Source: Paenibacillus sp. FJAT-29882 (GTDB taxonomy: Bacteria; Bacillota; Bacilli; Bacillales; DSM-1321). Taken from it: a stretch of 64,000 nt of DNA. The DNA is taken from assembly GCF_001510645.1 (NCBI RefSeq), contig NZ_LMVB01000001.1, positions 2,862,981-2,926,980 on the forward strand. Direction: 5' to 3'. The position numbers were made by a program, and so were the translations under genes. Position 1 is the first letter of the stretch; each line of letters begins with the position of its first letter. Shown piece by piece: positions 2,891 to 46,565 of this stretch. The notes under the pieces are model-generated. The model was given only the letters and a program-made list of their open reading frames with translations, searched no databases and was not told the DNA's origin.

Positions 2891-3039
2891 TTAAGCATGT
2901 ATTTGCGTTTCTTCATTTTTAAAAAAGCTCTTCATCGCGTGAAAAACATCAGATTTTTGTTTTAAAATATAATGGCGAAACTTTTCGTTGCTTATATTTT
3001 TGTAGGCTGTCATAAGAGTTGAGTGGCGATTGTATTGGT
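2891..3039 (-). pseudogene. yhbH: Detached native 3' end of yhbH (attL side)
   Basis: The minus strand reads [14 protein letters not shown]..., then [17 protein letters not shown] and ends QIHA-stop. This matches the C-terminus of the intact yhbH at 45393 ([15 protein letters not shown]..., [17 protein letters not shown]) but differs at many codons. It has no start codon and is interrupted exactly at the shared 10-bp core. It is the original host 3' end, displaced when the prophage integrated. Precise excision would rejoin it to the N-terminal part. Confidence 0.92.
3030..3039. repeat. attL core
   Basis: TTGTATTGGT, identical to 45538-45547. Sequence to the left is native yhbH 3' coding; to the right it is phage. 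In yhbH orientation it reads ACCAATACAA and encodes part of the NQYN motif. Confidence 0.85.
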
Positions 3040-3066
3040 ACAACTATCCACCCTATACACAAATAC

Positions 3067-3702
3067 TTACTTGATTTCTTCAAATGTTTTAACCTCTCCC
3101 CTGATATTTTTCTTTTTCATCCAATCCTCAAATTTACGCTTTCTTTCCTTGTTGGTCGTAAATACACACAAAATGGGAGCAGTTCTCTTTTTAAGTTCTA
3201 CTAACATATCTGCATAGGAATCAATCTTTTTGCGGTTATCGATCATACTACGCGTATTATCAACCTCGATAAGATGAAGATATCCATTACGAGTAAAGCA
3301 AGCATCGGCGACAATCTTTTGCTTTACAAGTGACATGCCACCAAACAAGATACCTCGAGTGTTTAACGGTTCTTTTTCAATCGTATATTCTGTTTTCCAA
3401 TCAACGGGACAGTTAAAGTGAAAGTAAACTTCGTTACCAAGTAAGGTATGTTCCATGAGGGAATTCTTTTTCATTTCTCTTGTAGAACCGATTAGCTCCC
3501 TACCTTCCTTATTCAAATACAACACCTTTTCCCTATCAAACATTGTTTCATTAATATAGGGGGAAAGCTGTTTCACAACCCGGCAAGCATTGCTGTAACT
3601 TTTTAAATCATGGGTTAATTGTAGGTGACGTATCTTCGCCATTCCTAACTTGTCGATCGTTGTTAACAGGCTTTCTACCCTTGATTGCGTTGATGATAGC
3701 AT
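3067..3702 (-). CDS. Replication-relaxation family protein
   Basis: 211-residue protein of the replication-relaxation (plasmid mobilisation-like) family. It has an N-terminal winged-helix-like part (VESLLTTIDKLGMAKIRHLQ) and a C-terminal nuclease-fold-like part (RNGYLHLIEVDN, PILCVFTTNKERKRKFEDW). The ATG at 3702 is chosen because GGAGG lies 9 nt upstream. The gene overlaps the end of the FtsK-like gene by 95 nt in another frame. In Bacillus plasmids, integrative elements and some prophages this pair occurs together. The family is annotated by association and the enzyme activity is unproven. It is the last phage gene before attL. Confidence 0.75.
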   Translation of the reverse strand: MLSSTQSRVESLLTTIDKLGMAKIRHLQLTHDLKSYSNACRVVKQLSPYINETMFDREKVLYLNKEGRELIGSTREMKKNSLMEHTLLGNEVYFHFNCPVDWKTEYTIEKEPLNTRGILFGGMSLVKQKIVADACFTRNGYLHLIEVDNTRSMIDNRKKIDSYADMLVELKKRTAPILCVFTTNKERKRKFEDWMKKKNIRGEVKTFEEIK

Positions 3703-4801
3703 CCTCTTTCGCCTCCATTTGAGTAAACATATATTTGTCGTCAATATAAGGCACTTGCACAGTACGTTTCTTTTCAATCTTATATATGGCCCTTCCCGGA
3801 ATAGAAGGAAGATCCTCAGCTCCTATTTCATCCAGGATTACTCGACTTGCAATTTGTGCTGCAGCAATGAAAGAAATTCTTGCGACAATGTTCATTTTCA
3901 CCTGCATGGGAACAGCTTCTTTAGTTGGGTATTGCGTGCAATAAAGTAATCTAAGCCCTAAACCTCCACCAATCCTTGATATCTCTGATAAGGAAGCCTG
4001 ACAAAATTTCGCGAATTTCTTTCCTTCACCTTCAATGATGTTAGGAGAAAGTTCTGCACCTTCATCAACAATGACAAAGGTCCTTTTCTTGATAGGAGAA
4101 TCAACAACATTTGTATAACCTAACTTTCGGAAATTCTTCTCCTGCAACTTTAGGTTCGTGACTATCTCATTTAAAACCCCAGCCGCTTCAAATACGTCTG
4201 ACGCTACTGCTTTTACTTGCGGAAGCCCGATATATTTGCCAAACTCAAGGCCCCCTTTTAAATCAAGAAAGTAAAATTCGACGTTCTCCATTTGATCCAT
4301 AAGCAATGTGTAAAAGGCTTCTTTAATAAAAACAGTTTTACCAAACCTAGTTACACCACCTACAAGCATATGAGGGTATTTTTCAAAGTCATGATAAAGG
4401 ATGCCAGTATGATTCTTTCCGATAGGAATTTCCCACGTTCCTTTACACAATAAATCATCATTGTATTTCCAACTGGTGGGCAAACTTTGATTGAATACGT
4501 TGATTTTCAATACCCCGTCAAATTCGATTTCTACTTCTTTGTTTAATCCATCTCTAATAGCAGGTAGAATTTTTTCTAAATCCTCAGATGGTACACCAAA
4601 AGGTAAAGAATAGATAAAAGTCTTATGCGTATCCTTTTCATATTTACGAATTAATTTAGGATATTGAAACGAATCCCCTTTTTTAATCCCTACTTTGCAG
4701 TTTTCAAATATCATTTTAAGTTTTCTTTCATCCATCATTTTCTTTTTAGGCATCAATGCGAATCCTAAAGCGATTGTCGGGATAGCTAACCATTCAATCA
4801 T
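3608..4801 (-). CDS. FtsK/SpoIIIE-like DNA translocase
   Basis: 397 residues. One hydrophobic N-terminal stretch (AIPTIALGFAL) is followed by a P-loop ATPase with Walker A GGVTRFGKT (about residue 148) and Walker B TFVIVDEGAEL. This is the short FtsK/HerA class found in plasmids, integrative elements and some Bacillus phages, not the long chromosomal FtsK with a gamma domain. It probably pumps or positions phage or plasmid DNA at the membrane, together with the replication-relaxation protein translated after it. AGGAGG lies 4 nt before the ATG at 4801. Confidence 0.85.
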   Translation of the reverse strand: MIEWLAIPTIALGFALMPKKKMMDERKLKMIFENCKVGIKKGDSFQYPKLIRKYEKDTHKTFIYSLPFGVPSEDLEKILPAIRDGLNKEVEIEFDGVLKINVFNQSLPTSWKYNDDLLCKGTWEIPIGKNHTGILYHDFEKYPHMLVGGVTRFGKTVFIKEAFYTLLMDQMENVEFYFLDLKGGLEFGKYIGLPQVKAVASDVFEAAGVLNEIVTNLKLQEKNFRKLGYTNVVDSPIKKRTFVIVDEGAELSPNIIEGEGKKFAKFCQASLSEISRIGGGLGLRLLYCTQYPTKEAVPMQVKMNIVARISFIAAAQIASRVILDEIGAEDLPSIPGRAIYKIEKKRTVQVPYIDDKYMFTQMEAKEDAIINAIKGRKPVNNDRQVRNGEDTSPTINP

Positions 4802-4809
4802 ACGGCCTC

Positions 4810-4938
4810 CTACTTTTTATCTTTTCTGGATTGCAGAGCAAGACAGAAAAGAAGAATATGAAGTATTCCTGTTATGGTTTTAAAACACAAAACAGAACAA
4901 GGTAGACAATAACAAACATCAAACATTCCATACTCCAT
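4810..4938 (-). CDS. Possible 42-residue membrane protein
   Basis: An open frame between the small membrane gene and the FtsK-like gene, starting MEYGMFDVCYCLP and hydrophobic in the second half (ITGILHILLFCLAL). AGGTGG lies 13 nt upstream, which is a poor spacing. The stop codon abuts the FtsK ribosome site, as in a coupled operon. Low certainty: cysteine-rich and short, so it may be chance. Confidence 0.3.
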   Translation of the reverse strand: MEYGMFDVCYCLPCSVLCFKTITGILHILLFCLALQSRKDKK

Positions 4939-4976
4939 TCAATAATCAACCACCTGGAAACTTGATTCCACACTCA

Positions 4977-5159
4977 TTACAAGAATATTCTCGAGACTAC
5001 TTTCAACAAATATAGAATGCTGCCATACTTGGCTACCTCCATAAAAAGAGTGAGTGCTGTGTCATTAATCTTAAATCCTGCACCATCAAGCAAGGCTATT
5101 CCTCCCAGTGTCGCTCCTGTCACGCCTACAAATACCATACCGAATGTTATAGGGTCCAT
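4977..5159 (-). CDS. Small two-segment membrane protein
   Basis: 60 residues with two hydrophobic segments (FGMVFVGVTGATLGGIALL and ILYLLKVV). AAAGGGGA precedes the ATG. It is first in the leftward FtsK/replication-relaxation module and resembles small membrane proteins found beside such pumps in plasmids and integrative elements. Function not known. Confidence 0.6.
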   Translation of the reverse strand: MDPITFGMVFVGVTGATLGGIALLDGAGFKINDTALTLFMEVAKYGSILYLLKVVSRIFL

Positions 5160-5306
5160 TTTCCATTCCCCTTTCCAGTTGATACTGTATTCTATGGATA
5201 AACGCCTAGATAATGCGTGTCCACCACAAATAATTGTGATTTTTCTCCCAAAATATTGTGGAAGGAAGAATGTACAAATTGTCGAATTAATAAAGTGGTG
5301 GTGTTT

Positions 5307-5507
5307 ATGTTGATTTGTAATGTTGGGAAGTTAATAAAAGATTCACCATTCAAGAGAGAATACTTATGTGATTATTTAGGGGTTTCAGCGAATACCTTAA
5401 CAAATTGGTGCCAAGGGAAAACCTACCCTCCCGCAGATAAGTTATTCAAACTCGCATATGTATTAAAAGTACCGGTAAAAGAATTTTATATTTATGTGGA
5501 GGAATAA
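5307..5507 (+). CDS. Cro/CI-type HTH protein
   Basis: 66 residues, almost entirely one XRE helix-turn-helix (LCDYLGVSANTLTNWCQGKTYPPADKLFKLAYVL). The ATG at 5307 follows GGTGGTG at 5 nt; the longer upstream reading has no ribosome site. It is transcribed away from the FtsK-like module and probably regulates it. The intergenic region contains CACAAATAATTGTG and a related ATTGTGG, possible operator sequence. The next gene starts 2 nt after the stop. Confidence 0.75.
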   Translation: MLICNVGKLIKDSPFKREYLCDYLGVSANTLTNWCQGKTYPPADKLFKLAYVLKVPVKEFYIYVEE

Positions 5508-5509
5508 TA

Positions 5510-5785
5510 GTGGATATTGTTTATGATTTATTAGGGGCAATCATCGGAAGTTGGATTGTTTTTAATTTATTTTGTATCATTCTGTTTAAAGTTTTGGATT
5601 CGAAATCTTTACGCTATGTATCTTTTGTGGGATCCGCAATAGTGATATTAGTCATAACCAATTTTACAATAGGAATGCAAATTGGATTTTTAATGTATAT
5701 ACCCGCTTTATTCATCTGGTTTGTGCTAGATCTTGTTAAACTAAATAAGAATAATAGTAAAACAGAAGAAGCCCCTACTCAATAA
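5510..5785 (+). CDS. Hypothetical three-segment membrane protein
   Basis: 91 residues, GTG start directly after a GGAGGA ribosome site that overlaps the end of the HTH gene. Three hydrophobic stretches cover residues 5-25, 33-55 and 58-75, followed by a short charged tail. Co-transcribed with the HTH gene. A phage cargo or exclusion protein would fit, but nothing in the sequence proves it. Confidence 0.6.
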   Translation: MDIVYDLLGAIIGSWIVFNLFCIILFKVLDSKSLRYVSFVGSAIVILVITNFTIGMQIGFLMYIPALFIWFVLDLVKLNKNNSKTEEAPTQ

Positions 5786-5805
5786 AGAGTAAGGGCTTTG
5801 TTTTC
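5769..5805. terminator. Bidirectional terminator between membrane gene and endolysin
   Basis: AAGCCCCTACTC / GAGTAAGGGCTT hairpin with a 6-nt loop, A-tract before and T-tract after. It ends both the rightward HTH/membrane transcript and the leftward lysis transcript. Confidence 0.8.
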
Positions 5806-6411
5806 TTACTCCTCTTTTATATATACTACATATCCAAATTCTTTTTTTACCTTTGCTGCTGCTGTTTCCGCATCTGACTTAGTACCGAATGTACCAGTAA
5901 CTAACCGGTATCTCTTATCGTTACTAGCAGCAGAGACTTCTTTTTTAACATTAGGATTGATAATACCAAGTGCCGCATTCTTTACATCTGCCATACGAAA
6001 ATTTTTACCAGGACAATCCGTTTTAGCTAAATCTCTATGACCAATCACATCATTAAGAGTTAATCCGTATTCTCTTACAAATTGAGCGATAAGCCACCCT
6101 CCAGCTTCAACTTGAGCATCCGTCATTTTTTGTTCATCAAAGTTCCCTTGGAACGATAAACCGAGCGTATGGCTATTATGACCTGAACAATGAGCGCCTA
6201 CATTTTTACCTCGCCCCTCCTGGATACGTCCATCAAACGTAATGAAGTAGTTATAGCCGATCCCACTCCATTTTAATGCGTTTTTGTGATAGTTATGAAT
6301 CTCTTGTATATCCCAAGTTTTATGTGCAGGATGATGCAATACCAGCTTGTCTACTTTTTTTATAGGAGTTAACTTATCTCGAAATGATAAATTTACTTTT
6401 TCTATTTTCAT
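5806..6411 (-). CDS. Endolysin: N-acetylmuramoyl-L-alanine amidase with short SPOR tail
   Basis: 201 residues. The N-terminal Amidase_2/PGRP domain (about 15-150) has zinc ligands His26, His125 and Cys133 in the motifs LVLHHPA and GHRDLAKTDCPG, plus the YNYFITFDGRI segment. The last 35 residues (RYRLVTGTFGTKSDAETAAAKV...) resemble half a SPOR peptidoglycan-binding domain. It cuts the amide bond between muramic acid and the stem peptide to release virions. Its start overlaps the holin stop, the usual lysis cassette order. Confidence 0.92.
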   Translation of the reverse strand: MKIEKVNLSFRDKLTPIKKVDKLVLHHPAHKTWDIQEIHNYHKNALKWSGIGYNYFITFDGRIQEGRGKNVGAHCSGHNSHTLGLSFQGNFDEQKMTDAQVEAGGWLIAQFVREYGLTLNDVIGHRDLAKTDCPGKNFRMADVKNAALGIINPNVKKEVSAASNDKRYRLVTGTFGTKSDAETAAAKVKKEFGYVVYIKEE

Positions 6412-6821
6412 TATTTATCTTCCCCTTTATCTTTTAATTGAGAAAAAGCACTAGAAATCTGAACAGGTACTTTTACGCCTAGTTTACCGAGATTTTCAAT
6501 AAACGAAATGCCTTCCGTCCCAATCAAAAACATAAGCATGGCGTTTCGCATAAATTGTCCGGTCCCGCCTGTGATCACATCTAATTGATTCGCTACAATA
6601 ACCGCCAAAATCATAGCGCTCTTTTTCATCAAACCTTGAAAGGCTGATTTAGACGAAATGTTTTTTACGGTAAAAGCTGTCATAACCCCTGAAATAAAAT
6701 CAGCCGCCATCAAAACGCCTAGTGCGATAATCAAATTATCTACACCTCCAACTAAGTAAGCTATGACCGATATACCGCCCCCAGTAAAGACGGTCCACAA
6801 TGTATCTGTGCTGTGTTGCAT
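6411..6821 (-). CDS. Phage holin (toxin-secretion/lysis family)
   Basis: 136 residues of the Phage_holin_4 family. Hydrophobic segments lie near residues 13-30, 34-52, 68-82 and 88-105, followed by a charged C-terminus (SQLKDKGEDK). It forms the membrane holes that let the endolysin reach the wall. It overlaps the endolysin start by one base. Confidence 0.9.
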   Translation of the reverse strand: MQHSTDTLWTVFTGGGISVIAYLVGGVDNLIIALGVLMAADFISGVMTAFTVKNISSKSAFQGLMKKSAMILAVIVANQLDVITGGTGQFMRNAMLMFLIGTEGISFIENLGKLGVKVPVQISSAFSQLKDKGEDK

Positions 6822-6851
6822 TTGATTACACCTCCATTAACCCTTTTATAT

Positions 6852-6882
6852 ATAAAAAAGAGACCTCGTAAGAGATCTCTTC
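6852..6882 (-). terminator. Terminator at end of the virion gene run
   Basis: AAGAGATCTC / GAGGTCTCTT hairpin with a T6 tract on the minus strand, between the 81-residue membrane gene and the holin. Some read-through must be allowed or the lysis genes have their own promoter. Confidence 0.7.
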
Positions 6883-6888
6883 GACAAT

Positions 6889-7134
6889 CTAAAATTTTCT
6901 AAATCCATTTTTGTCTACTTCTTTGTTTTCTACAAAAATACTTTTAACGAAATAAATTGCATGGCCAAGGAAATGATATAACCCTATCAATATAACCAAC
7001 CCGAAAACGACAGTTACTACAATTGTTAATAGTGGGTCAATAAAAGAAATGAAATGAATATACGCTAAATAAAAAAGAACGGATAACGGAAAACACAACA
7101 AACCAACTAGGATTATTTTAGAGTATTCCTTCAA
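6889..7134 (-). CDS. Hypothetical two-segment membrane protein
   Basis: 81 residues, two hydrophobic segments (IILVGLLCFPLSVLFYLAYI and LLTIVVTVVFGLVILIGLYHFLGHA), then a charged tail. It starts 4 nt after the stop of the giant virion protein. It may be a lysis accessory protein; not recognised. Confidence 0.6.
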   Translation of the reverse strand: MKEYSKIILVGLLCFPLSVLFYLAYIHFISFIDPLLTIVVTVVFGLVILIGLYHFLGHAIYFVKSIFVENKEVDKNGFRKF

Positions 7135-7138
7135 TTCA

Positions 7139-10100
7139 TCACCTCCCCAAACCAGAATAACTTTCAGCTTGTTTTGCTAGTAGTGTGATAACCATATCTA
7201 TTCTCTTTATTTCCTCCGTTTTTTGCTTACCACCCATATTGGGATCATCTATAATAGATCTTTTTTGTGCCTGTAAATCACTGATGCGGCTACTGATTTT
7301 ATTATAGGTCTTGTAAACATTTTCATTAGGATTAGGGGTGCCGTTTTTCTTTGCAGATAGGCTTTCTCTTTTAGACTTATCTAAACCTTTATAAAAGTCA
7401 TCAACACTCTGATTATTACCTTCTAGGTTTTTAACCACAAAACGGTTTAAAATCGGCAAATCAGCTAAACCTCTATCTGGTAATTCAGGTTTTTCATTCC
7501 CTGCCAATTTAGAGATGCCATCCGTACCCTTTAAGAAGTAATTACCTAAACCACCTGTGTATCCTTTAAATACATGTTCAATCTTTCTGGGTGACTTGTT
7601 GGCGATCTTACCGATCCCTTTTGATAATTCACTCTGATATGGTCCGTACTGATCTTCCGGCAGCATATCTTGTTCACGTCTAGGAACAATAGGAGAATCA
7701 AAATGCATGCTTTTATTCCCGTATGCTTCAATCCATGGGAGTATAGCAGTTGGGATCCAATTTGGTGTAAAAGCATCCTTTACAGTTTTTCCAAAACCTT
7801 CAAAAGATTTCGGGTCATTTGTTTTTGCGTAGTCTAACATTCTTTCAAATGATGTACCGAACATCACACCGGCTTCAAACGGTTTAGGTAGTTTGTAAAT
7901 TTGATTCCCCGCTTCAAAGTGCCAATACAAATCCTTTTCACGTTGCGGAATTTCTTTATACCATTCTTTATCGTGGTTATAATAATATGCCACGATAGAA
8001 GGTAATGTGATACTGGTTATTGCTTTTATTGGTGCTTGCACTGGTCTTTCTTTGAATGTACGAGCGAGTTTATCCATAGATTGAACCGCAGCATTAAAGA
8101 ACGCTGTAACCTGATTATATTGCCTTCCTATGCTCCCCGCTCGGCTGAAGTCAATTAAATCACGGGAAGAGAATGCAGCTTCTTTCGGTGTTGCACCCTT
8201 CTTTAATCCTTTTTTAAATTCCCCTACCCTTGTCGCTTCCTCTGTTATTTCAGAAACTTTTCTTAGTGGCCTGAGAATCGTATCTACCGTTTTAATAGGC
8301 CCACCAAAATCAGCTTTCATCTTTTGGCCTAATGATTGTTTTACCATTTTACGCAAATCGGCTTGTAGATATTCACGGTCGAGCGTTGATAAAACTGAGT
8401 TTGCTCCACCATTCTGTTTCCATAACCAATAGTCGCTATCCTTTTTAATAACACTTTTCATTCCTTTTGCCATATCCAAAAAAGGCACGAATCCATACTT
8501 GGAATTAACAAAGGCTGATAACTGATCTCGAAAAATGTTAACAGGTCCGAAGTCAGGTGATAACACTGCGCCAGCTCGTAATGTTCGTGCAGGAATTCCC
8601 ATCAGATTAATAAAAACATTCTGCTTTTGTGCATCAAGCGAAAGCATTGCTTTATATAAATCGTCTTGAAGCTCCATCTCGATTTTTTGTCCATCTTTGT
8701 ACACATAAACTTTGTTACCTTCACCTTTAAAAAGATTGTCGATTGCATCTGTTCTACCGTCATTCATTTGAACACTTGCATCATCTAAAACACTAGATAG
8801 GTTGTTAATCGAGCTATCTTGCTTGGTTACATTCGTAACCCTGCCCCACATGTTGTTTTCTGGTGCGTTCTTTATTAAATCATGCAAAGCCACACCGACC
8901 TTGTTTCTTTCAGCAATGTTTGTGATAACATATGTGTTTTTGACCAAACTTTCAATCGGGTTAATGATCGGTTTTTCAGAACCTGTCCGTTGCTTGATAG
9001 GATTCGTTAAACTTGCGAACTTATTTTTTGGACTAATCGGTTCAAACCCTCTCACCCTGGGCTCTTGCACCCTGTTCATCGAGATATAGTTAGGGTTATC
9101 TTTAAAGATTTGTTCAACTGCTTCGTCTGTATAATAACCAGATTCTTTCAGTTCTTTCATGAGTGTTTGACTATATTTCACTAACTCCTGTTGATGTGCC
9201 TTAATATTAGGTGATTCAGCTTCAATTTGACGAATAGTTGCTTCTGCAAGTTGATAATCATTCATTCCTTCGACGTTCTTAGGCTTAATTCCTGCTGTTA
9301 ATCCTTTTTTATCATAATCTAAAGCACGTTTAGAAATTGCATAAGCAAGAAAATCATCTATTTTGTTTTCAAACGGCTTAATAATTTCTTTTAATGATTT
9401 CTCTATTTTTTGACCTTGTTCATTAAATACTCCGCCATTCAAATAGGCTTCGGCTTTACCTGCCATCCCACGCGCTAATTGAGCTAATTTATGAGGGTCT
9501 TTTTCTATTTGAAGGCCTTTGCCACCCAAATCCTTTGAAGCTTTGTTTACTGCGTGTAAATCACTCACAACAGCCGTATAAGCCTTATCAAAAGACCATT
9601 TCGTTTTTTCGCGTTTACCATTCGTGTCAATTTGTTTTTTCACGATTTCTTTAGGATTATGAATATCAATTGGAGTACGGTCTATAGGTGTTTCTCCTGC
9701 TTTTAAACGAATTAAAGACCCACCATCATTTCTTGCTGTGATTGGTTCAAACTCACGAGGAGTTGAACGTGCAGTATTTAATCCAGGTAATGTTTCTGAT
9801 AGAGGTCTAATGTTCTCGACTGAAGGCGCTGCTTCACTACGGGATAATGGGTCTAATCCCCTTTCTCTTAATGATGGTTGAGGTTGTTTAGCAGACGCTG
9901 ATAATCGATCAAAGAATTGGTCTGTTTGACCAGAAGCACGACTAAATGGTTTAGGACCTAATTGGTCAAGAGTGCTTTGACTTGGTCTGCCTGTAAAATT
10001 AGGAACATCACCTTTCGCAAGCTTACCTAATTGTTTAGATGCAATACCACCTAACCCATGTAATAACGGATCTGCTATAGCTCCACCTGCAGCACTCAAA

Positions 10101-20433: not shown

Positions 20434-21441
20434 TTAATCTCCCGCTACCGTTCCCTTACCCGGATCAATTTTACAAATCGCTCTCCAGTTGTTTGGAGCA
20501 GCACCGAAACGAGCACGACCTTTAAAGATGTTGTTATCTGTTTCTTCATCAATGTATGATTTCACACTCAAATCTAATCGGTTTAGCCACACTAGACCAG
20601 CGTATGCTTCATTGAAAGAAGAATCCATGAGATACCATGAATCAGTTCCTGCCGTGATGCCTGGAGTATTAGTTAAGTACGGAGAAATGATTACATTCCA
20701 GCGACCAAACTGAAAGTTAAAGGAGTTATTCGCTGTGCCAGGAATCCCCTCTGCACCGATTGCATCAAACACAAGTTTTTTGATTCGAGATTTATCGGGA
20801 ATGATGATCGTATCTGGTTGCAGATTCAAAATGTTCCCATCTTCATCTTTGAAATAGTGCATAGCTTCTTCGATGTAACCTAATGCATCATAGGAAAATG
20901 GATTCCCAAAGTAGTTTGACTGTTTCGGTCCTTTATTAGTAGCAGAAGGATGATCAGTAGAGAATAAAGGTTTAGCATCCGCACCTGTAATATCAAACCT
21001 TTTCCCTTTGCCCCCTAATTGGAATGTAGCGTTTTGAGCATTGTTTAAAATACCAGTCGCAAACAATTCCTTAGTACGGCTAAATGATTGCATAAATTGG
21101 TTAGTCTTTTGCTTAATTTTCCCCATTTTAGCATCTTCGATAATCTGTTGAGTGACCTCGAATGAGTTTTTCCATTCTTCCGGCTCTATTACTTTAGAAA
21201 ATCCTTCTTGCATGGATGAACGAGGGTAAGCAGCACCTTCACCTACTGGCTCAAAGTTTCCTAGAGATGTTTCAGAAGTATACTTCTCAGCGTAATTAGT
21301 TGTATCATCCTCATAAAAGACATGAGAAATGATAGAATTCTTTTCATGTGCTTCCTCTTGCTTTTCTAGCATCATTTTAATTGGCTCTTGGCTCTTTCCA
21401 TAAATGCTCTCGTTTACACCACTTGATTTCGAAAATAACAT
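20434..21441 (-). CDS. Major capsid protein
   Basis: 335 residues with an HK97-like capsid pattern. There is an N-terminal helix region (IKMMLEKQEEAHEKNSII) and an E-loop-like segment (GAAYPRSSMQEG..., WKNSFEVTQQIIEDA). The peripheral and axial domain features are PLFSTDHPSATNKG, PDTIIIPDKSRIKKLVFDAIG, FNFQFGRWNVIISPYL, SFNEAYAGLVWLNRLD and RARFGAAPNNWRAICK. Placed after scaffold and decoration genes, with its own terminator for high expression. Confidence 0.85.
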   Translation of the reverse strand: MLFSKSSGVNESIYGKSQEPIKMMLEKQEEAHEKNSIISHVFYEDDTTNYAEKYTSETSLGNFEPVGEGAAYPRSSMQEGFSKVIEPEEWKNSFEVTQQIIEDAKMGKIKQKTNQFMQSFSRTKELFATGILNNAQNATFQLGGKGKRFDITGADAKPLFSTDHPSATNKGPKQSNYFGNPFSYDALGYIEEAMHYFKDEDGNILNLQPDTIIIPDKSRIKKLVFDAIGAEGIPGTANNSFNFQFGRWNVIISPYLTNTPGITAGTDSWYLMDSSFNEAYAGLVWLNRLDLSVKSYIDEETDNNIFKGRARFGAAPNNWRAICKIDPGKGTVAGD

Positions 21442-22984: not shown

Positions 22985-24961
22985 TTAGCCAGATTGTTCT
23001 ATTTGAGCCATCATTTGATCCATGACAGCCTGTTGTTGTTCTGGTGCCATCTTGCGGAAATTATCTTGTTCATGCTTTGGTAACTTCTCAAGTAACTGAT
23101 CAAATACCCGAGGATCATTAGGATCTATTTGTTGCTCCATCATTTGTTGTTCCTGCTGCATCATTTCTTGTTGTTGGGCTTGCTGTTGTTGCATCATCAT
23201 TTGTTCCTCAATCTGCGACTTGATTTGCTTAGCCATCGGGAAGTTTAATGATTCCATAATGGTCCAGAATTGCGTTTTATCAATCGCTTGAGTACCCAAC
23301 ATTTCTTTTGCCTGGTTAAACATGAATATCGCATCTTTCGGAATACCTGAGCCAGCATCGGCAGAGAAAAGGAAATCCGTGTTGTAATAAAGTTCCCCTG
23401 CATCATCCTGCAGCAAGAATTTGTGTTTATCAAAATCACCGTAATCATCATTGCCATTTTGATCCTTAGCAAGATACGGGCGTAATTCATCATAGAAAGC
23501 TAATTTGAATTCGAACATGATCTCGAAAAGTTCTTTGAAGGCTGTCTGCTTGTTGAATTCCTTAGACCTCATCCGACCAGAAGCCTGTTGTACCTGAATT
23601 TGTTTAGCTACACCTGAGGTGGCTGTACTGTCTTCTAAGCCTTGGAAAGAGTTTGTGATACCTAGCATGTACTGAGTGATTTGCCGTTGATGGTCAACGT
23701 ACTGCATATCATCACCAATTGGCGCTTTGATATCCTTTACATTGATCGCGTTGAGTTTAGCAAGATCGCCACGAATAATTTGATATGTCTCGTTTGTGAC
23801 CTCCACTTTCAATTCATCAGGTAGTAAAAGAAAAGAACCGCCCTTCATGACCTTTTCTTCCATCTTGGAGCCGACCTTTTTAATGCTGTCTTGCTGATCC
23901 CGAATGGTATCAACATCGGACTGACCACCAAACGAGAAGTTTTTAGGCACATTCTTTCGGATGACAACAGGGTAACGGGATGGTGTAAAGAATGGAACTT
24001 TAGTTCCGGCAGGAATGATGATTGGTTGTTTGTTTCTATCCAACTTCCCAATCTGAATGTCACGATCCAATTCCTCGTATTCCTCAGTCTGCTTCTTAAA
24101 CTTCTTAGAGCCACACTGACACTCATCGTCCACCTTCACCTTACCGCAATTGGCACAACGTTCTAATCGCCTGTAATAGAACTTAGGAAGGTCCTCAAGC
24201 GCTTGGTCATTCACCCAAACAAACTTCCCGATATCGCCTTCTTTGTCTTTATACCAGCAAACAATTTCGGTTACTTTCTCATTTTCATTCCCTTTTGTAC
24301 CCTCTTCCATGAACGAATGGATCTCAGGGTATTGCTCATCGTCTGAATCATCCAGTTCCACATCATAACGGCGCCCAATGTATTCCTTTGTGACAGATGA
24401 AAGTATAAAAAAGTAATCCATCTTTTGAATATCGTAGATACCAGGCTGTGGTATAAGTTGTTTCGGATGCTTGCTTGTTACTTTAATTTCTCCCCTGTAT
24501 AGATGGTGTTTGAAATCAGGGTCCCAACTTACCTCAATGACAGAAAAGCCTTGGATGGGAGTGATACGCTCGTTTATATCGTTGATTTCCTCAATGCCAA
24601 TCTCTTTTAGATCATTGGAGATGCTATCCTCTATCATGCTGGCTTGTTCCTCGAATCCCGGTCGCTTAGCCTTAACGGAAGGTTGTGGAATAACTGAGTT
24701 GACTTGCGACTCAATCATTTCAAAGGTCACATTATAGATGTTATTTGCTTTTTTAGTGGGAGCCTTACGATTATTCACGTTACCATCCACAGCACGAGTA
24801 CCAAGGTATATCCTCTCTCGTTCATCCATGATGTTCGTGTCATAATTGGTTATGGATGATTCAAGCTTACTTTTCCACTTCCTCAATTTCTTGCTGTCCT
24901 CTGGAGTAAATTTGTCCATAATTTCACCACCCATCTTTTTCAGTTTGTTTAGGAGTTTCAT
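22985..24961 (-). CDS. Portal protein with a zinc-ribbon insertion
   Basis: 658 residues, the size class of P22-like portals. It has a helical N-terminal part, stem and wing features (VPFFTPSRYPVVIRKNVPKNFSFGGQSDVDTIRDQQDSIKK, DAGSGIPKDAI) and a C-terminal Gln/Met-rich coil (EEQMMMQQQQAQQQ). At 269-283 there is CANC...CQC (Cys269, 272, 281, 283), a likely zinc ribbon. It forms the dodecameric DNA gate on one head vertex and docks with the terminase encoded upstream. GTAGGTG ribosome site. Confidence 0.85.
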   Translation of the reverse strand: MKLLNKLKKMGGEIMDKFTPEDSKKLRKWKSKLESSITNYDTNIMDERERIYLGTRAVDGNVNNRKAPTKKANNIYNVTFEMIESQVNSVIPQPSVKAKRPGFEEQASMIEDSISNDLKEIGIEEINDINERITPIQGFSVIEVSWDPDFKHHLYRGEIKVTSKHPKQLIPQPGIYDIQKMDYFFILSSVTKEYIGRRYDVELDDSDDEQYPEIHSFMEEGTKGNENEKVTEIVCWYKDKEGDIGKFVWVNDQALEDLPKFYYRRLERCANCGKVKVDDECQCGSKKFKKQTEEYEELDRDIQIGKLDRNKQPIIIPAGTKVPFFTPSRYPVVIRKNVPKNFSFGGQSDVDTIRDQQDSIKKVGSKMEEKVMKGGSFLLLPDELKVEVTNETYQIIRGDLAKLNAINVKDIKAPIGDDMQYVDHQRQITQYMLGITNSFQGLEDSTATSGVAKQIQVQQASGRMRSKEFNKQTAFKELFEIMFEFKLAFYDELRPYLAKDQNGNDDYGDFDKHKFLLQDDAGELYYNTDFLFSADAGSGIPKDAIFMFNQAKEMLGTQAIDKTQFWTIMESLNFPMAKQIKSQIEEQMMMQQQQAQQQEMMQQEQQMMEQQIDPNDPRVFDQLLEKLPKHEQDNFRKMAPEQQQAVMDQMMAQIEQSG

Positions 24962-39897: not shown

Positions 39898-39905
39898 GTT
39901 GAGTG

Positions 39906-40259: not shown

Positions 40260-40263
40260 AGTA

Positions 40264-40522: not shown

Positions 40523-40746
40523 TTAAACTTCCTCCTTTTGGTTATATAAGCAGAATTATCTTTCATCCACACATCTAGGCTACCGCCGCAATACTTGTGC
40601 ATGTAATGACGATTCATATCAATCAATTCGTCTGATACATCTTTGAATTTTTCGATAAGGGATTGAATCATATCGTAAGATTGAGCATCGACTGAGTTAC
40701 GTTGATTTTCAAAGTGTTTTTGAATATCGGTTATGGTGTATCTCAT
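40519..40746 (-). CDS. 75-residue small phage protein
   Basis: MRYTITDIQKHFENQRNSVD... is helical with a basic end (ITKRRKFK). AAGGAGATG ribosome site. Not recognised. Confidence 0.55.
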   Translation of the reverse strand: MRYTITDIQKHFENQRNSVDAQSYDMIQSLIEKFKDVSDELIDMNRHYMHKYCGGSLDVWMKDNSAYITKRRKFK

Positions 40747-40772
40747 GATGGCATCTCCTTATGAGAGGGCTG

Positions 40773-41447: not shown

Positions 41448-41923
41448 CGTATACGCACACTCCTTGTTTGAGTTAATGTACACCCTTCAATTAATTCCCC
41501 TTCTTTGAGAGCTGCAAGAATCGCCTTCTTGTCAATTTTCTCAGGCTGAGGTACCATGTAATCAGATGGAATTAGACTTTCATCTTCAATTTCTACAGCA
41601 GGAGGATTGTTCGCAATAGATATGGTTAAAGTTGGACGCTTCACTTTATCTATGCCAGCAACCTCCATTTGATTTTGGAGATACGATTTAATGGATACGA
41701 TCTTGTTTTCAAGAGCTATTCGTCTATCAGCAAACCTTTTTTCCTCCAACTTAATCGCTTCGATAACACCCTGCAAAGAACGAACCAATTTAGCTGAGTT
41801 TTCTGCTTTATCTTCAATTGCTTCCTCGATGGATTCCAACGTATCACGGAATGTGATAGGATCCATTTCCTCAGCCATATCCTGCAACGTATTGTAATGG
41901 GTTGTTAACTCGTATAATTTCAT
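41444..41923 (-). CDS. Gp157-family phage protein
   Basis: 159 residues. LYELTTHYNTLQDMAEE..., helices with AEEMDPITFRDTLESIEEAIEDKAENSAKLVRSLQGV, then KSYLQNQMEVAGIDKVKRPTLTISIANNPPAVEIED. Matches the siphovirus Gp157 family that commonly precedes single-strand annealing genes. Role unclear; it was named for phage resistance in Streptococcus thermophilus. Confidence 0.9.
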   Translation of the reverse strand: MKLYELTTHYNTLQDMAEEMDPITFRDTLESIEEAIEDKAENSAKLVRSLQGVIEAIKLEEKRFADRRIALENKIVSIKSYLQNQMEVAGIDKVKRPTLTISIANNPPAVEIEDESLIPSDYMVPQPEKIDKKAILAALKEGELIEGCTLTQTRSVRIR

Positions 41924-42093
41924 GCGATTTCCTCCTCGATATTTTCCATATCGTGAATTGCAATAAAACGCGCCTTGTACTCCTCTATTTCGTCTTGCTC
42001 CAAATGAGTGAATATTTCAGTCAGTGTTTCTACACTTGGCATGTATCCAGCATCGTGACAGTCGCAGAGATAGAAGAAAATTGACTCAGGCAT
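41920..42093 (-). CDS. 57-residue acidic phage protein
   Basis: From the ATG at 42093: MPESIFFYLCDCHDAGYMPSVETLTEIFTHLEQ..., ending ENIEEEIA. Overlaps both neighbours. Four residues longer if the ATG at 42105 is used. Confidence 0.55.
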   Translation of the reverse strand: MPESIFFYLCDCHDAGYMPSVETLTEIFTHLEQDEIEEYKARFIAIHDMENIEEEIA

Positions 42094-42397
42094 CTGGCAT
42101 ACCATCTAACTGAACATCATCGTCCATGAACTTTTCAAATTCACGAGTTTCGTACAATTTACGCTCTTCGAGAGAGTTGTCATAAAAAGCAGTAATATCG
42201 AATTTTGCATCATAGTCGCGGAAAGAAAACCACTGAGCACCTTTATGTTGGTTGTGTTCCATTAATTCAGTCGGAACCAAGTTTGCAATGAGCTTTTCAG
42301 CTTGACCTATCCCGATGACATTATCAAAAGACATTCTGATAGCTGCACCATTTTCCAAGGCTTTACGGACGATCGCTATTTTTTTTTCGATGTTCAT
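42086..42397 (-). CDS. 103-residue phage protein
   Basis: MNIEKKIAIVRKALENGAAIRMSFDNV... has a mixed alpha-beta pattern with an acidic end. AAGGAGGA-type ribosome site. Seen as a conserved early-region protein type. Function unknown. Confidence 0.6.
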   Translation of the reverse strand: MNIEKKIAIVRKALENGAAIRMSFDNVIGIGQAEKLIANLVPTELMEHNQHKGAQWFSFRDYDAKFDITAFYDNSLEERKLYETREFEKFMDDDVQLDGMPDA

Positions 42398-42409
42398 TTT
42401 TGTTCCTCC

Positions 42410-42577
42410 TTAGTTTTGATAGCAAGCATTTACCGCAGCTTCGATTTCTTTAAGAATCGGATTACCTTTTACTTTTTCAGCTTCAAACCACTTCTTTTTT
42501 TCTTGATCCGAAAAATTTGCGAGTGGAGAGTGTGTATAGATGACCGTATTACCAATGACAGTTTTTTTAATATCCAT
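42410..42577 (-). CDS. 55-residue phage protein
   Basis: From the ATG at 42577 (AGGTGATG upstream): MDIKKTVIGNTVIYTHSPLANFSDQEKKKWFEAEKVKG... It is a small beta hairpin followed by helices. Not recognised. Confidence 0.55.
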   Translation of the reverse strand: MDIKKTVIGNTVIYTHSPLANFSDQEKKKWFEAEKVKGNPILKEIEAAVNACYQN

Positions 42578-42658
42578 TCCCACATCACCTCTTACATCAT
42601 GTTTATGCGGTGATGTACTGTGGACGAACTGATTTAGCAATTAATCGCCTCATTCCTT

Positions 42659-42673
42659 TTCCCATTTTGGGAA
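42659..42673. promoter_or_regulatory. Operator TTCCC-N5-GGGAA (site 3)
   Basis: TTCCCATTTTGGGAA, just beyond the Cro-like stop codon. Same consensus as the two sites at the early promoter, about 240 bp away, a distance that would permit DNA looping by the repressor. Confidence 0.6.
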
Positions 42674-42677
42674 GTTG

Positions 42678-42878
42678 TTAAATAAAAAAAATATCATCTA
42701 ACGAACAGCCTAAAATTTTCGCGGCCTTTACTGCTTTGTTCACTGGTAATTGACGATGACCATTTTCAATCTCATTATACTTAGATGGTGATTTATACCC
42801 TAATAACTCAGCCATTTCTTGTTGTTCTAACCCCTTTTTCAATCGGAGTTCACGGAGTTTTTTATAATTCGTACCCAC
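42678..42878 (-). CDS. Cro-like HTH protein
   Basis: 66 residues from GTG at 42878 (AGGAGGT, 5 nt). XRE helix-turn-helix: YKKLRELRLKKGLEQQEMAELLGYKSPSKYNEIENGHRQLPVNKAVKAAKIL. First gene of the leftward early operon, downstream of the operator-bearing promoter. Confidence 0.85.
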   Translation of the reverse strand: MGTNYKKLRELRLKKGLEQQEMAELLGYKSPSKYNEIENGHRQLPVNKAVKAAKILGCSLDDIFFI

Positions 42879-42896
42879 TTTGTACCTCCTTTCTTT

Positions 42897-42952
42897 TTCC
42901 CATATTGGGAAGGTGTTGACTTTATTATATTTTCCCAAAACGGGAAAGTCAA
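42897..42952 (-). promoter_or_regulatory. Leftward early promoter with two repressor operators
   Basis: TTGACT (42947-42952), 17-nt spacer, TATAAT (42924-42929), a near-perfect SigA promoter. The operator TTCCCAAAACGGGAA (42932-42946) fills the spacer, and TTCCCATATTGGGAA (42897-42911) lies between the -10 box and the Cro-like start. Repressor binding would block initiation directly. Confidence 0.85.
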
Positions 42953-43080
42953 CACTTTTTTTGTCCGTTTTGGCAAATTATTTTTCGTTTGTTTAATTTG
43001 TTTAATCAGAAAGGTAAAATTACATATTATGCACATGCTATAATGGAGCATATTATCGTATTAAAAAAGGGGAAATTAAT

Positions 43081-43425
43081 ATGGCTAGTAAAGAGGATCT
43101 TAAATACGGAAAAAAGATTAGAGAAGTTAGAGAAGCAAATAGAGACACCCTTGAGGAATTAGCAGATAAATTAGACATAAATTGGAGTACATTAGGTAAA
43201 TACGAACGTGGTGAAAGAAAGATTACACCCGCTATATTGGAAAATGTTTGTACGGTGTACGATATTCCCATACTTTTCTTTTTTGGCGAAGAAGGAAAAC
43301 TTTCTGATCGTTTAAAAGACCTAGGGGCTGAATGGGTTGCGTTCGCTGAGGAAATGAAGGAAAAATCCATTACTCCCGAAGAAATAAAGGCAGTATTGGC
43401 ACTAATCAAAAAACATAACATGTAA
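43081..43425 (+). CDS. CI-like repressor (XRE family)
   Basis: 114 residues. Helix-turn-helix at 10-65 (IREVREANRDTLEELADKLDINWSTLGKYERGERKITPAILENVCTVYDI), then a short helical C-terminus (ITPEEIKAVLALIKKHNM). No LexA-like protease domain, so induction probably depends on an antirepressor rather than self-cleavage. AAGGGGAAA ribosome site. Diverges from the Cro-like gene. Confidence 0.85.
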   Translation: MASKEDLKYGKKIREVREANRDTLEELADKLDINWSTLGKYERGERKITPAILENVCTVYDIPILFFFGEEGKLSDRLKDLGAEWVAFAEEMKEKSITPEEIKAVLALIKKHNM

Positions 43426-43612
43426 TCGTTAGACAAAAAACGACATTAAGAATGCTTTGAAATCAACACTAAACAGAAAAATCAGACTAATGTTTGTCGA
43501 AAAAGGGAAACAATAGGTAAATTAATCCACTGACGGAAAACACAAGGAGATGTATAATAAAAATTATACAGCTAAGAACTTATGTTCGTAGTAATTTAGG
43601 AGGCGTGTTTTC

Positions 43613-43750
43613 TTGAAATTTATCGAATGTGACCAACTCGGCAAGGGGAAAACTATCAAAATTGGCAATTTTTTAGTCGTCGGTACAAAAGAAGCAGAGC
43701 CAAAAATAATATTATCAACAGTAATGGAACCAAAAGAAAAAGTTTCATAA
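43613..43750 (+). CDS. 45-residue small protein upstream of the integrase
   Basis: TTG start after AGGAGGCG: MKFIECDQLGKGKTIKIGNFLVVG..., ending KEKVSstop. A compact beta protein in the lysogeny region between repressor and integrase. It may be an excision (recombination directionality) factor, but this rests on position only. Confidence 0.5.
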   Translation: MKFIECDQLGKGKTIKIGNFLVVGTKEAEPKIILSTVMEPKEKVS

Positions 43751-43756
43751 ATACAC

Positions 43757-43790
43757 AAAGGAGAATCTCTATTGATACTCCTTTTTTATT
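43757..43790 (+). terminator. Terminator before the integrase gene
   Basis: AAAGGAG / CTCCTTT hairpin with a 15-nt loop and a T6 tract on the plus strand. Confidence 0.55.
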
Positions 43791-43852
43791 TGCATAAAAT
43801 ACATATTGCTATTCGTGTATAGCCGTTTATATAATTGGGTAGAGGTGTTTAT

Positions 43853-45376
43853 ATGAAGGTTTTTATTTATTTGCGTAAAAGTAGGAAAGATATTGAAGAA
43901 GAACGAAAGCGCGGCGATACATACGATACCTTGAATCGCCACAGAGAGACGCTCTTTGCGTTAATCAAGCACGAGGGGTATGATTTGGCCTTAGAGCCCT
44001 TTGAGGAAGTGGTTTCTGGAGAATCTGTAATAGAAAGACCAGAAATGCAGAAATTGTTAAAACTGATAGAAAACGGCGCTGTTGACGCAGTTGTTGTTAT
44101 GGACCTGGATCGTTTAGGTCGTGGCGACATGTTTGATCAAGGGTTAATAGATCGAGCGTTCCGCTACTCTGGAACCTTATTAATTACGCCAACAGAGACT
44201 TACGACCCCGAATCACAAGAATGGGAATTAGTATTCGGAATTAAATCTCTAGTTGCTAGAGGAGAACTAAAAGCGATTACAAGACGTATGCAAGGTGGAA
44301 GAAGGCATAGCGCTAAAGAAGGTAAGTCTATCTCCAAGAAACCACCATACGGCTACTCAAGAGATGAGAAGTTGATCCTTCATCCTGATGAGGACACTTC
44401 ATGGGTTATAGAAAAAATATTTCAGTTGGTCGCAAACGGATCAGGTAGACAAGCCGTTTCAAATGAACTGGACAAGCTAGGCATTTCTCCACCGAACCCA
44501 GAACGTGATTTTTGGTCACCTAGCATGGTTACTTCCATCGTTAAAAACGAGGTTTATAAAGGTGATATTGTATGGGGGAAATTCAGCTATAAAAAAAGAC
44601 ATGGCAAGTATGAGAAAAAAAGAGTCGATAAAAAAGACTGGATAATTAAAGAAGATGCTCACGAAGCGATTGTTTCTCGTGAATTATGGGAAAAGGCAAA
44701 TGAATCTCACTCGGGTCGCCACCGCCCACCTTCTTATAACTTAGACAAAAAACTTTCCAATCCTCTAGCTGGTGTATTGAAATGCGATATTTGCGATCGT
44801 TCTATATTGGCTCAACCTCGTGTAAACAGAAGAAGCGCAATGATGCGCTGTGTTAACCCTAAATGTAAAGGTGTACAGAAAAGCTCGTACCTTGACATAG
44901 TAGAAGAACGAGTTTTACAAGAGTTGGAGAATTTTATTAGGAAATTCGAAGTGGATTCTCCTGTTGAAAAAAAAGATAATATTATACCGATTAAAGAGAA
45001 AGTAGTAGCAAAGAAGAAAAAAGAGTTAGCAGAGCTGCGCATACAAAAAAATGATTTGCATGATTTTTTAGAAAAGAAAGTGTATGACATTAAAACGTTT
45101 TTAGAACGCCAGGATATTGTGTTAGGAAAAATAAAAGATGTAGAATCCGTTATATCTGAATTAGAAGAGGAAATACAAATAGAACAAATGAAGATCAAAA
45201 ATACAGTCGAATATATTCCAGCTCTCAGAAACGTTGTTGAAGCATATAGATATACTGATGATATAGAAAAGAAAAATCGCCTTCTCAAGTCCATCCTTGA
45301 AAAAGCGACATATAAACGAAAAAAAGATTGGTCAAAACAAGATGAATTCGAGATTCATCTATACCCTAGAATATAA
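43853..45376 (+). CDS. int: Large serine recombinase, prophage integrase
   Basis: 507 residues from the ATG at 43853 (AGAGGTG, 5 nt). Catalytic domain 1-145 with nucleophile Ser10 in YLRKSRKD and the motifs DAVVVMDLDRLGRGD and IKSLVARGELKAITRRMQ. Recombinase domain about 160-265. Zinc ribbon CDICDRS...CVNPKCKG near 305-340. Long coiled coil (385-470) that controls integration versus excision. It sits 17 bp from the yhbH end and about 160 bp from attR, and is the natural agent of insertion at the yhbH core. Confidence 0.96.
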   Translation: MKVFIYLRKSRKDIEEERKRGDTYDTLNRHRETLFALIKHEGYDLALEPFEEVVSGESVIERPEMQKLLKLIENGAVDAVVVMDLDRLGRGDMFDQGLIDRAFRYSGTLLITPTETYDPESQEWELVFGIKSLVARGELKAITRRMQGGRRHSAKEGKSISKKPPYGYSRDEKLILHPDEDTSWVIEKIFQLVANGSGRQAVSNELDKLGISPPNPERDFWSPSMVTSIVKNEVYKGDIVWGKFSYKKRHGKYEKKRVDKKDWIIKEDAHEAIVSRELWEKANESHSGRHRPPSYNLDKKLSNPLAGVLKCDICDRSILAQPRVNRRSAMMRCVNPKCKGVQKSSYLDIVEERVLQELENFIRKFEVDSPVEKKDNIIPIKEKVVAKKKKELAELRIQKNDLHDFLEKKVYDIKTFLERQDIVLGKIKDVESVISELEEEIQIEQMKIKNTVEYIPALRNVVEAYRYTDDIEKKNRLLKSILEKATYKRKKDWSKQDEFEIHLYPRI

Positions 45377-45377
45377 G

Positions 45378-45412
45378 AAAAACCGCGTGAGGTCAATACT
45401 CCGCGGCTTTTT
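45378..45412. terminator. Bidirectional terminator shared by integrase and yhbH
   Basis: AAAAACCGCG / CGCGGCTTTTT hairpin whose loop contains the yhbH stop codon. It is phage DNA, so the phage brings a replacement terminator together with the replacement yhbH 3' end. Confidence 0.7.
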
Positions 45413-46565
45413 GTTCTTCTTTATGAAAGAAAGCTTGTAACGCACGTATGACATCCGATTTTTGTTTTAATATATAATACTTAAACTTTTCTTCTTCGAA
45501 ATCTTTGTATACGCTCATTAGGGTAGAGGGTCTACGGTTGTATTGGTTGACCTCTCCATAACCGAACATATTAGATACCTTCATGAGTTCTTCGACGAGT
45601 TTTACACAGCGGGCGTTATCAGAGGTAAGATTGTCACCGTCTGAGAAATGAAATGGGTAGATATTGAATCTATCAGGGGCGTATTTTGTGTCAACGAGCT
45701 CTAAAGCTTTGCGATAGACGGATGAGCAAATCGTACCACCGCTTTCTCCTTTTGAAAAGAAATCTTCTTCTGAAACGACCTTGGCTTCTGTATGGTGAGC
45801 AATAAATTCTATTTCAACAGATTCATATTTCGTCCGGAGAAAGCGATTCATCCAGAAGAAGAAGCTACGAGCCATATACTTTTCCCAGAGTCCCATACTT
45901 CCTGACGTATCCATCATCGCTAAAACGACTGCTTTAGAGTCCGGCTTTTCGATTTCATTCCAGGTTTTAAATTTATAGTCCTCTTTATAAATCGGATGAA
46001 AACCTGGATCACCACTTAAGGCATTTCGTTTAAATGCAGAGATCATCGTTTTCTTCTTATCGATATTTCCCATCAAACCCGTTTTTCTAATATCATTAAA
46101 TTCAATATCCTCTACTGTGTTATCATCCCTTTCTTTGCGCTGTAAATTTGGAAGTTCTAGCTGACTAAACAATGCCTCTTCAATTTCAAGCATGGTTACT
46201 TCCGCCTCATAATAATCCTCTCCTGCCGAGTCCCCCGCTCCCTGACCTTTACCTGGTCCTTTTTCCGGTGAGCCATCTCTTGCCACTACATCTCCAACTC
46301 GACTTTCTCCGTCACCTTGACCTACATGCTTATTTTTATCATAGTTATAACGGATCTTATATTCATCCAATGAACGAATGGGGATTTTCACGACGTCTTT
46401 TCCATTAGACATGATAATACTTTCCTCAGAAATTAAATCCGGAAGATTATTCTTGATCGCTTCTTGCACCTTTTCCTGATGTCTTTGTTGATCATCAAAA
46501 CCTTTTCGGTGGAGGGACCAATCCTCCTGTGAAATTGCAAACTGATGATTATTCTCTTTCGTCAT
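45393..46565 (-). CDS. yhbH: Chimeric YhbH: host N-terminus, phage-encoded C-terminus
   Basis: 390 residues, the usual YhbH/YeaH (UPF0229) length. Host part: basic Gln-rich N-terminus, [13 protein letters not shown] and a von Willebrand A-like domain ([28 protein letters not shown] with the [41 protein letters not shown]). After NQYN at about 340 the sequence is phage-derived ([12 protein letters not shown]..., [21 protein letters not shown]). The native end lies at 2891. In Bacillus it is linked with prkA and expressed in sporulation and stress. Regulated with PrkA, whose gene is next upstream. Confidence 0.93.
45538..45547. repeat. attR core
   Basis: TTGTATTGGT, the second copy of the attL core. 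Right of it the sequence is host yhbH; left of it phage. The reading frame of yhbH runs through unbroken. Confidence 0.85.

Follow-up and report, generated by a model that had tools for sequence, protein, structure and literature searches.

A stretch of 64,000 nucleotides from Paenibacillus sp. FJAT-29882 (contig NZ_LMVB01000001.1, positions 2,862,981 to 2,926,980; hereafter the window, in whose own numbering coordinates are given) contains a 42.5-kb prophage, at 3038..45545, within yhbH, a gene whose loss impairs sporulation in Bacillus subtilis. The prophage sits between two copies of the yhbH 3' end, one native and one borne by the phage, and the phage-borne copy completes the gene in frame. 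We consider it highly probable that the locus as a whole is best explained by a temperate phage with a serine integrase, which carries a captured yhbH end in frame behind a dual-coding attachment-site arm and keeps that end for the fitness of the lysogen.

The chimeric gene (45393..46565, minus strand) comprises 390 codons, with codons 1-340 from the host and 341-390 from the phage, and its product matches the Pfam family DUF444 through the last profile position. The insertion point lies between codons 340 and 341, and the crossover falls within the Gln codon of VNQYN, at 45545-45543 in the left attachment site (attL) and at 3037-3035 in the right one (attR); the junction at 45548 given in a preliminary description of this DNA is at most 3 bases away. 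The substitute 3' end supplied by the phage occupies 45393..45545 (minus strand), and its first ~25 nt double as the P' arm of the attachment site. At the other end of the prophage, the displaced native end (2891..3037, minus strand) retains 48 codons and a stop but no start codon.

Comparison with relatives identifies the native end. DNA identity to the nearest relative (L004) is 93.1% for the host 5' part of the gene, 94.5% for the 2891 remnant and 70.5% for the phage-borne end, and joining the two flanks yields a gapless YhbH of 388 aa that is 97.9% identical to the L004 protein. The remnant-type ending ...QYNRHSTLM... is found in all 29 same-genus 3' ends read, and the phage type in none. 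These ends comprise 28 from L004-L032, without L013, whose genome (G018) carries such an element, plus L046; the genus part of the search covered 35 other genomes, with G001, G004, G021, G026 and G033 outside the set read. The possibility that the 2891 segment is an unrelated duplicate is ruled out by its 94.5% identity to a relative's native end and by the gapless join of the empty site, and the possibility that the chimeric end is the normal one of the species by its absence from the 29 same-genus ends. Thus, the preliminary description was right to take the 2891 segment for the displaced native end and the prophage for one that brings a homologous but diverged substitute, as reading frame, DNA identities and flank join all bear out. 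Excision of the phage would rebuild the native yhbH exactly, as the joined flanks indicate.

To judge from free forms of related elements, the spare end belongs to the phage, because the attachment site (attP) on viral contigs without the rest of yhbH holds the same end. On these contigs the yhbH 3' end stands behind an intact phage arm, and no yhbH N-terminus lies within the stretches examined. Sequences from L081, L094, L103, L104, L107 and L252 show an attP that carries the yhbH end, as do L105 and L126 by reading frame; this evidence comes from relatives, no free form having been seen for the window's own phage. In G377, a contig of 9,829 bases (L252, G377:C2) links both ends of the integrated element via a yhbH-carrying attP. 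It is 99.98% and 99.3% identical to the two element ends, with the middle missing, and may be either an excised deletion circle or an assembly product. The chromosome of G377 (L253) also has two attR-like yhbH ends 3.6 kb apart, and the arrangement in L252 and L253 could represent a deletion circle or nested integrations.

Selection on the phage-borne end

For a test of selection we used loci at which an element of this kind restores the yhbH C-terminus. Among 36 such restoring loci, 32 fitted a pattern requiring a final FF pair, and 29 rows were left after three near-copies had been dropped; the pattern missed L164, L167, L170 and L233, with L167 and L170 included in the comparison of phage ends with natives. 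From the motif of the attachment-site arm to the final FF, the ratio of nonsynonymous to synonymous substitution rates (dN/dS) of the phage-borne ends has a median of 0.09 and a maximum of 0.23, with none of 23 usable pairs above 1, a result that is tempered by the mutual dependence of the pairs and by the choice of rows through a pattern that itself requires FF. Host yhbH ends over the same segment have a median of 0 and a maximum of 0.40 (91 pairs). By these ratios, the phage-borne segment beyond the arm is under purifying selection. In an alignment not selected by FF, all 16 restored proteins have the FF pair, which is missing from L233, a locus with a broken integrase. The earlier proposal that the phage parks in yhbH without inactivating it is supported insofar as the reading frame is intact and selected. 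The phage would keep the segment as a lysogen with a working YhbH would be fitter, most likely in sporulation.

In an AlphaFold model of YhbH, the predicted local distance difference test score (pLDDT) is 77-91 in blocks over much of residues 211-380 and drops to 59-72 at 271-280, 311-320 and 341-360. Structural matches of the C-terminal half are mostly vWA/MIDAS domains. The swapped part is predicted to form a strand (361-366) and a helix (371-379) at the end of the vWA domain, both of which a truncated YhbH would be without.

The attachment site and its coding arm

In attL (45521..45557, minus strand) a host half (GGAGAGGTCAAC) and a CA core are followed by the phage P' arm (ATACAACCGTAGACCCTCTACCC), and in attR (3021..3060, minus strand) the phage P arm (GTGTATAGGGTGGATAGTTGTAC) and the CA core are followed by native yhbH. 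The two sites and the free attP have a dyad in common, which consists of GTGTATAGNGT, about 12 bases, CA, about 12 bases and ACNCTATACAC; it is present in attP and in the phage halves of attL and attR and absent from the host halves. The central CA is part of the Gln codon in the conserved VNQYN. The position of this CA can be read off directly, and the dyad together with the integrase family makes the CA of the Gln-341 codon most likely the 2-bp core.

The motif of the ACCCTCTACCC arm is, by its symmetry and conservation, the presumed binding site of the integrase. In most restoring elements the right arm, whose motif is the mirror of GTGTATAGGGT, approximates ACCCTCTACMC and reads in frame as Pro-Ser-Thr-Leu; variants are Arg-Ser-Thr-Leu in L104, L105 and L173 and Pro-Tyr-Thr-Leu in L161. 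In phages that truncate yhbH the right arm can be a plain mirror (ACCCTATACAC in L098), and in several truncating elements the arms are worn. Ser-Thr-Leu comes one codon earlier in the native gene than in the phage-borne ends, and the latter carry an extra codon because the attP arm motif is read as Pro-Ser-Thr-Leu. This layout is found in 25 of 29 restoring rows. In L192 and L180 the motif fits without an extra codon, and in L186 and L183 gene homology resumes after the motif with several extra residues. The spacing demanded by the integrase apparently goes with one extra codon, which falls in a low-confidence coil of the predicted structure. The attP arm would thus be dual-coding, with the same bases serving as integrase motif and as yhbH codons.

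The enzyme itself is encoded beside the chimeric gene. The protein of 513 aa (P0002; 43835..45376, plus strand) combines Resolvase (PF00239) and Recombinase (PF07508) domains in one long chain, in agreement with its earlier assignment to the large serine type; its gene is convergent with yhbH, with 16 bp between the stop codons. From the dyad and the family, this integrase would recombine attP with the site in yhbH. The P' arm, fused in frame to the phage copy of the 3' end, would thereby exchange the last 48 codons of the host for 50 phage codons, and the recognition motif would double as the Pro-Ser-Thr-Leu codons, which accounts for the extra codon relative to the native gene. A complete yhbH with its own terminator would result, as the reading frame indicates. 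The shared 3' ends of chimeric yhbH and integrase carry a hairpin (45374..45411) of -16.5 kcal/mol (z -4.3), which overlaps the last yhbH codons and is followed by U-rich sequence. This hairpin is likely a rho-independent terminator, as the preliminary description had held in crediting the phage-supplied end with its own, and it was not listed by a consensus terminator scanner whose longest loop is 8.

The next gene upstream of yhbH is the host gene prkA (47144..49156, minus strand), the usual neighbour of yhbH. Its gene content marks the element as a temperate tailed phage, with genes for head, portal and tail proteins, an antirepressor and replication, among them those of the major head protein (20434..21441, minus strand) and the portal protein (22985..24961, minus strand). 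At the attR end, 3067-4801 encodes a replication-relaxation-like protein (Pfam match below cut-off; PHROG replication initiation) and an FtsK/SpoIIIE-like protein, a plasmid-like pair inside a tailed prophage.

Two states in one integrase clade

An integrase matches at E<=1e-90 in 26 of 397 genomes of the order; 18 of these genomes hold 19 places at 49-100% identity, and there are eight further places at 40-41%. In all 18 genomes of the 49-100% set the integrase lies at most 4.1 kb from a yhbH break, on the same contig in 17 (the contigs of G278 stop at the junction), and a second native yhbH 3' end is present in 17, the exception being G202. Of the eight genomes at about 40%, the four examined have a single, uninterrupted yhbH. 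The element supplies a substitute C-terminus in nine of the 18 order-level genomes (G000, G055, G156, G182, G202, G231, G278, G377, G414); in the remaining nine yhbH is truncated (G037, G077, G085, G090, G106, G216, G413, G417, G418). Among the named hosts in which restoring elements occur are Heyndrickxia, Anoxybacillus, Geobacillus, an uncultured Metabacillus, Neobacillus, Litchfieldia, Lihuaxuella, Aneurinibacillus and Halalkalibacterium.

Some arrangements are less regular. About 1.6-6.3 kb separate yhbH from the integrase in L036/L176 (G018), L172, L190 and L192, so the spare end need not adjoin the integrase. In G106 (L246-L249) three separate yhbH 3' ends stand by one truncated yhbH, a pattern that tandem integration of several elements would leave. 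Decayed second yhbH segments beside an intact yhbH in L040 (G047) and in L043 (G045), the latter with integrase fragments as well, are possible scars of former integrations. Brevibacillus phage Osiris, whose integrase is 43% identical, was rejected as a carrier of a yhbH end by its integrase, there being no significant match in the 6.6-kb stretch read.

The two states are intermingled in the integrase phylogeny. On a tree of 51 rows (26 restoring and 25 truncating, with attP-only contigs among them) there are 11 changes of state, nine of which are forced by well-supported branches, and trees of 52 and 82 rows likewise give 11 changes among rows of known state. The state of 22 integrase rows was scored as unknown, as the contig ends at the integrase or no yhbH lies within the stretch. 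The broken integrases of L233 and L127 are outside all trees, L125 and nine near-copies are outside the 51- and 52-row trees, and L191, which reads N over the site, was excluded from the 51-row tree; the change counts are the same with L191 in as truncating. The restoring elements form one group in 0% of 200 bootstrap trees, and the approximately unbiased (AU) test rejects such a group (p=3e-50). Sisters that differ in state include the pairs MM2020_4/Fredinandcohnia, Metabacillus/Anaerobacillus and Lihuaxuella/B. chungangensis. On this tree evidence, the integrase clade gained or lost the restoring state more than once.

Truncating elements measure 9.0-50.7 kb (median 21.7, n=14) and restoring elements 26.3-72.5 kb (median 42.4, n=12; p=0.0013), in a comparison that is uncorrected for phylogeny and, for G106 with its several 3' ends, takes the nearest one. 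Outside this set are G202 (no far end found), G278, G413, G414, G048, G449, G453, G458, G461 and G465, in which the far end is on a different contig, G020, G454 and G460, whose integrase lies elsewhere than at yhbH, G451 and G462, for which one part was not found, and G455, G456 and G463, which are the same places as G418, G202 and G055. Among the open reading frames (ORFs) tested, head, packaging or tail genes occur in five of the 14 truncating elements (G037, G216, G417, G418 and G457, where a head-decoration match and a weak tape-measure match were found) and in seven of nine restoring elements examined (none in G055 and G018), a contrast that is not significant (Fisher p=0.09). The other nine truncating elements have no such gene among the ORFs tested, and one of them, G452, has a phage-type endolysin. 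The ORFs tested were a part of those in all 14 truncating elements (seven in G446 and two in G439, integrase apart; most short ones were taken to Pfam first) and, besides those of the window element, the two longest in each of eight of the 11 other measured restoring elements, with G156, G377 and G448 outside. In shortened truncating elements the integrases have a dN/dS of 0.04-0.07 in four of six pairs, the other pairs being saturated, and restoring integrases have 0.035-0.047. Four related truncating elements, G077 (L295), G085 (L329), G090 (L293) and G106 (L332), each encode three serine recombinases and no phage structural gene among the ORFs tested.

Known or likely defence genes are present in all three of the three-recombinase islands scanned. 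These are Gabija GajA/GajB in G106 (L331:7518-11737); a type II-A retron reverse transcriptase with NDT partner, a type II methyltransferase and a UvrD/PD-(D/E)XK protein in G090 (L293); and a KAP NTPase with weak defence matches in G085 (L329). The restoring elements without structural genes also match defence models, with a strong Lamassu LmuB match in G055 (L296:413-2086) and a type I methyltransferase in G018.

These traits of the truncating elements fit excision under sporulation control, as in intervening elements that leave their target gene in the mother cell (regulated gene integrity), and the clade would then have found two solutions to one problem, a spare end or departure. We regard this as an evenly balanced proposition. 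The shorter length of the truncating elements speaks for it, as do the nine of 14 without structural genes among the ORFs tested, whose integrases are strongly selected all the same, and the four elements with three serine recombinases, like gin (PMC5595907). It is weakened by the length test being uncorrected for phylogeny, by the insignificant contrast in structural genes, by the partial ORF tests, by the endolysin of G452 and by the equally strong selection on restoring integrases. This explanation adds to the one that we favor for the window and does not compete with it.

A single old capture is a more doubtful account, in which all restoring members descend from one phage and the truncating members have lost the end. 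The one-codon layout common to 25 of 29 restoring rows agrees with it, as do the phage ends of Bacillaceae elements, which are not clearly nearest to their own hosts, and the parsimony counts and AU test, although they reject one restoring clade, cannot alone separate gains from losses. However, there are three different fusion layouts. Furthermore, the natives closest to the Lihuaxuella phage end are those of its own family (74% and 68%, against at most 53% in other families), and those closest to the Aneurinibacillus end are of its own genus (74% and 71%, against 65% and 62% in Brevibacillus of the same family and at most 62% in other families); thus, fresh captures are favored in these two cases. 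The segment would have been captured from a host yhbH, to which its homology points, and in the wider clade capture and loss would have occurred repeatedly. The preliminary description asked whether the diverged end reflects old capture or altered function, a question that is answered in part by the purifying selection, by the footprint of the attP arm and by the restoring state having arisen or been lost more than once. It would be an even call that the clade as a whole switched repeatedly between two lifestyles in one sporulation gene, either as phages whose attP arm rebuilds yhbH or as splitters, with many splitters shortened to islands that rely on sporulation excision and in some cases carry three recombinases and defence genes, and with ends captured anew from local hosts.

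Several points weigh against a spare end retained for the fitness of the lysogen. Restoration is not essential, since half of the clade persists with a truncated yhbH. In the same-genus genome G020, which has an integrase of 57% identity, yhbH is uninterrupted and the integrase lies on a separate 5.2-kb contig (L251, G020:C128, 5241 bases) that may represent another site or an unintegrated element, and L187 and L181 (integrase ~50%) likewise come from genomes with an uninterrupted yhbH. The phage tail after FF is unconstrained (median dN/dS 0.42, 21 of 122 pairs above 1), and the YhbH model has a mean pLDDT of 63 and just 59 at residues 341-350. We nonetheless prefer retention for lysogen fitness over two further readings. 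That the diverged end changes YhbH function to the benefit of lysogen or phage, rather than just restoring it, seems improbable to us: phage ends are 56-79% identical to the natives of their own hosts (~34 residues, 12 cases with both) and their last residues vary freely, as this would allow, but purifying selection keeps the same core, and no phage-specific motif was seen beyond the attP-derived residues. Less probable still is that the phage-borne end is merely an attachment site that reads in frame by chance, with yhbH function irrelevant to the phage, since, for all that truncating relatives exist in nine of 18 genomes and that serine integrases do not need long attP-attB identity, selection acts outside the ~25-nt arm, DUF444 is matched at full length, FF is invariant in the aligned restored proteins (although absent from L233), and 20 truncating loci show no such C-terminus where readable (L191 reads N).

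Comparison with known systems

A gene-restoring attP is in itself already known, e14 in icd of Escherichia coli being a case in point. The integrase of e14 is of the tyrosine type, and we know of no switching between restoring and splitting for e14 at icd. Like the prophage of the window, e14 lies inside a protein gene, supplies a homologous 3' end, of 165 bp and 54 codons, and leaves the native end on the other side, but its replacement is near-identical (12 nt and 2 aa changes; PMC11148124), as against 70.5% DNA identity here. As a general rule attP carries a replacement for the target gene, exceptions being elements that regulate the gene by regulated gene integrity (PMC10111431); here both strategies recur within one serine-integrase clade at one site, and the replacement overlaps the presumed integrase motif. 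The staphylococcal cassette chromosome (SCC) elements also use large serine recombinases and insert near a gene 3' end, and their flanking repeats include the last few codons of rlmH (PMC10061031); they are not phages, however, and only the last few codons are involved, whereas 48-50 codons holding a predicted strand and helix of a domain are exchanged in yhbH.

Recombinase elements inside sporulation genes are known from skin in sigK, SPbeta in spsM, gin in gerE and yin in yabG (PMC4191935, PMC5025042, PMC5595907, PMC10747680), and yhbH is among the widely conserved sporulation genes (PMC3533761). The targets of those elements are broken until excision, whereas the window's yhbH is complete during integration; the truncating half of the yhbH clade, in which the target is broken, resembles them. 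The four elements with three serine recombinases, a number also reported for gin (PMC5595907), form a group of intervening elements that resembles gin but occupies a different sporulation gene from gerE. Disruption is also the outcome in 29 of 29 streptococcal integrative and conjugative elements with serine integrases (PMC4701971), and a large survey of large serine recombinases describes target genes as disrupted, its main text, searched by word, containing no yhbH, DUF444 or "restor" (PMC10083194). A prophage protein library lists "Sporulation protein YhbH", in a paper from which the words "attachment site" are absent as far as its available text goes (PMC9341999). The literature search for yhbH with a serine integrase found no description; the survey Mageeney 2020 (cited in PMC12884075), which lies beyond that search, could list yhbH. 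The remark in the preliminary description that no such account was known holds, within the reach of that search, for yhbH with a serine integrase; restoration as such is described as usual for attP (PMC10111431) and touches the last rlmH codons in SCC (PMC10061031). There is no description that we found of a serine integrase replacing about 50 codons, of a dual-coding attachment-site arm or of a clade that switches repeatedly between restoring and splitting.

For annotation and for the use of serine integrases as tools, it follows that an integration site inside a gene need not mean disruption. The attachment-site arm appears to evolve under two codes, one for protein and one for integrase recognition, with one extra codon as the footprint. 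The breaking and the rebuilding of a target gene have usually been compared across unrelated elements, whereas here both states alternate in one clade at one gene position. With both states in one clade and at least nine changes between them, it becomes directly testable what a broken sporulation gene costs and where spare ends come from, and the yhbH phages offer a natural experiment on the ways in which viruses spare their hosts harm.

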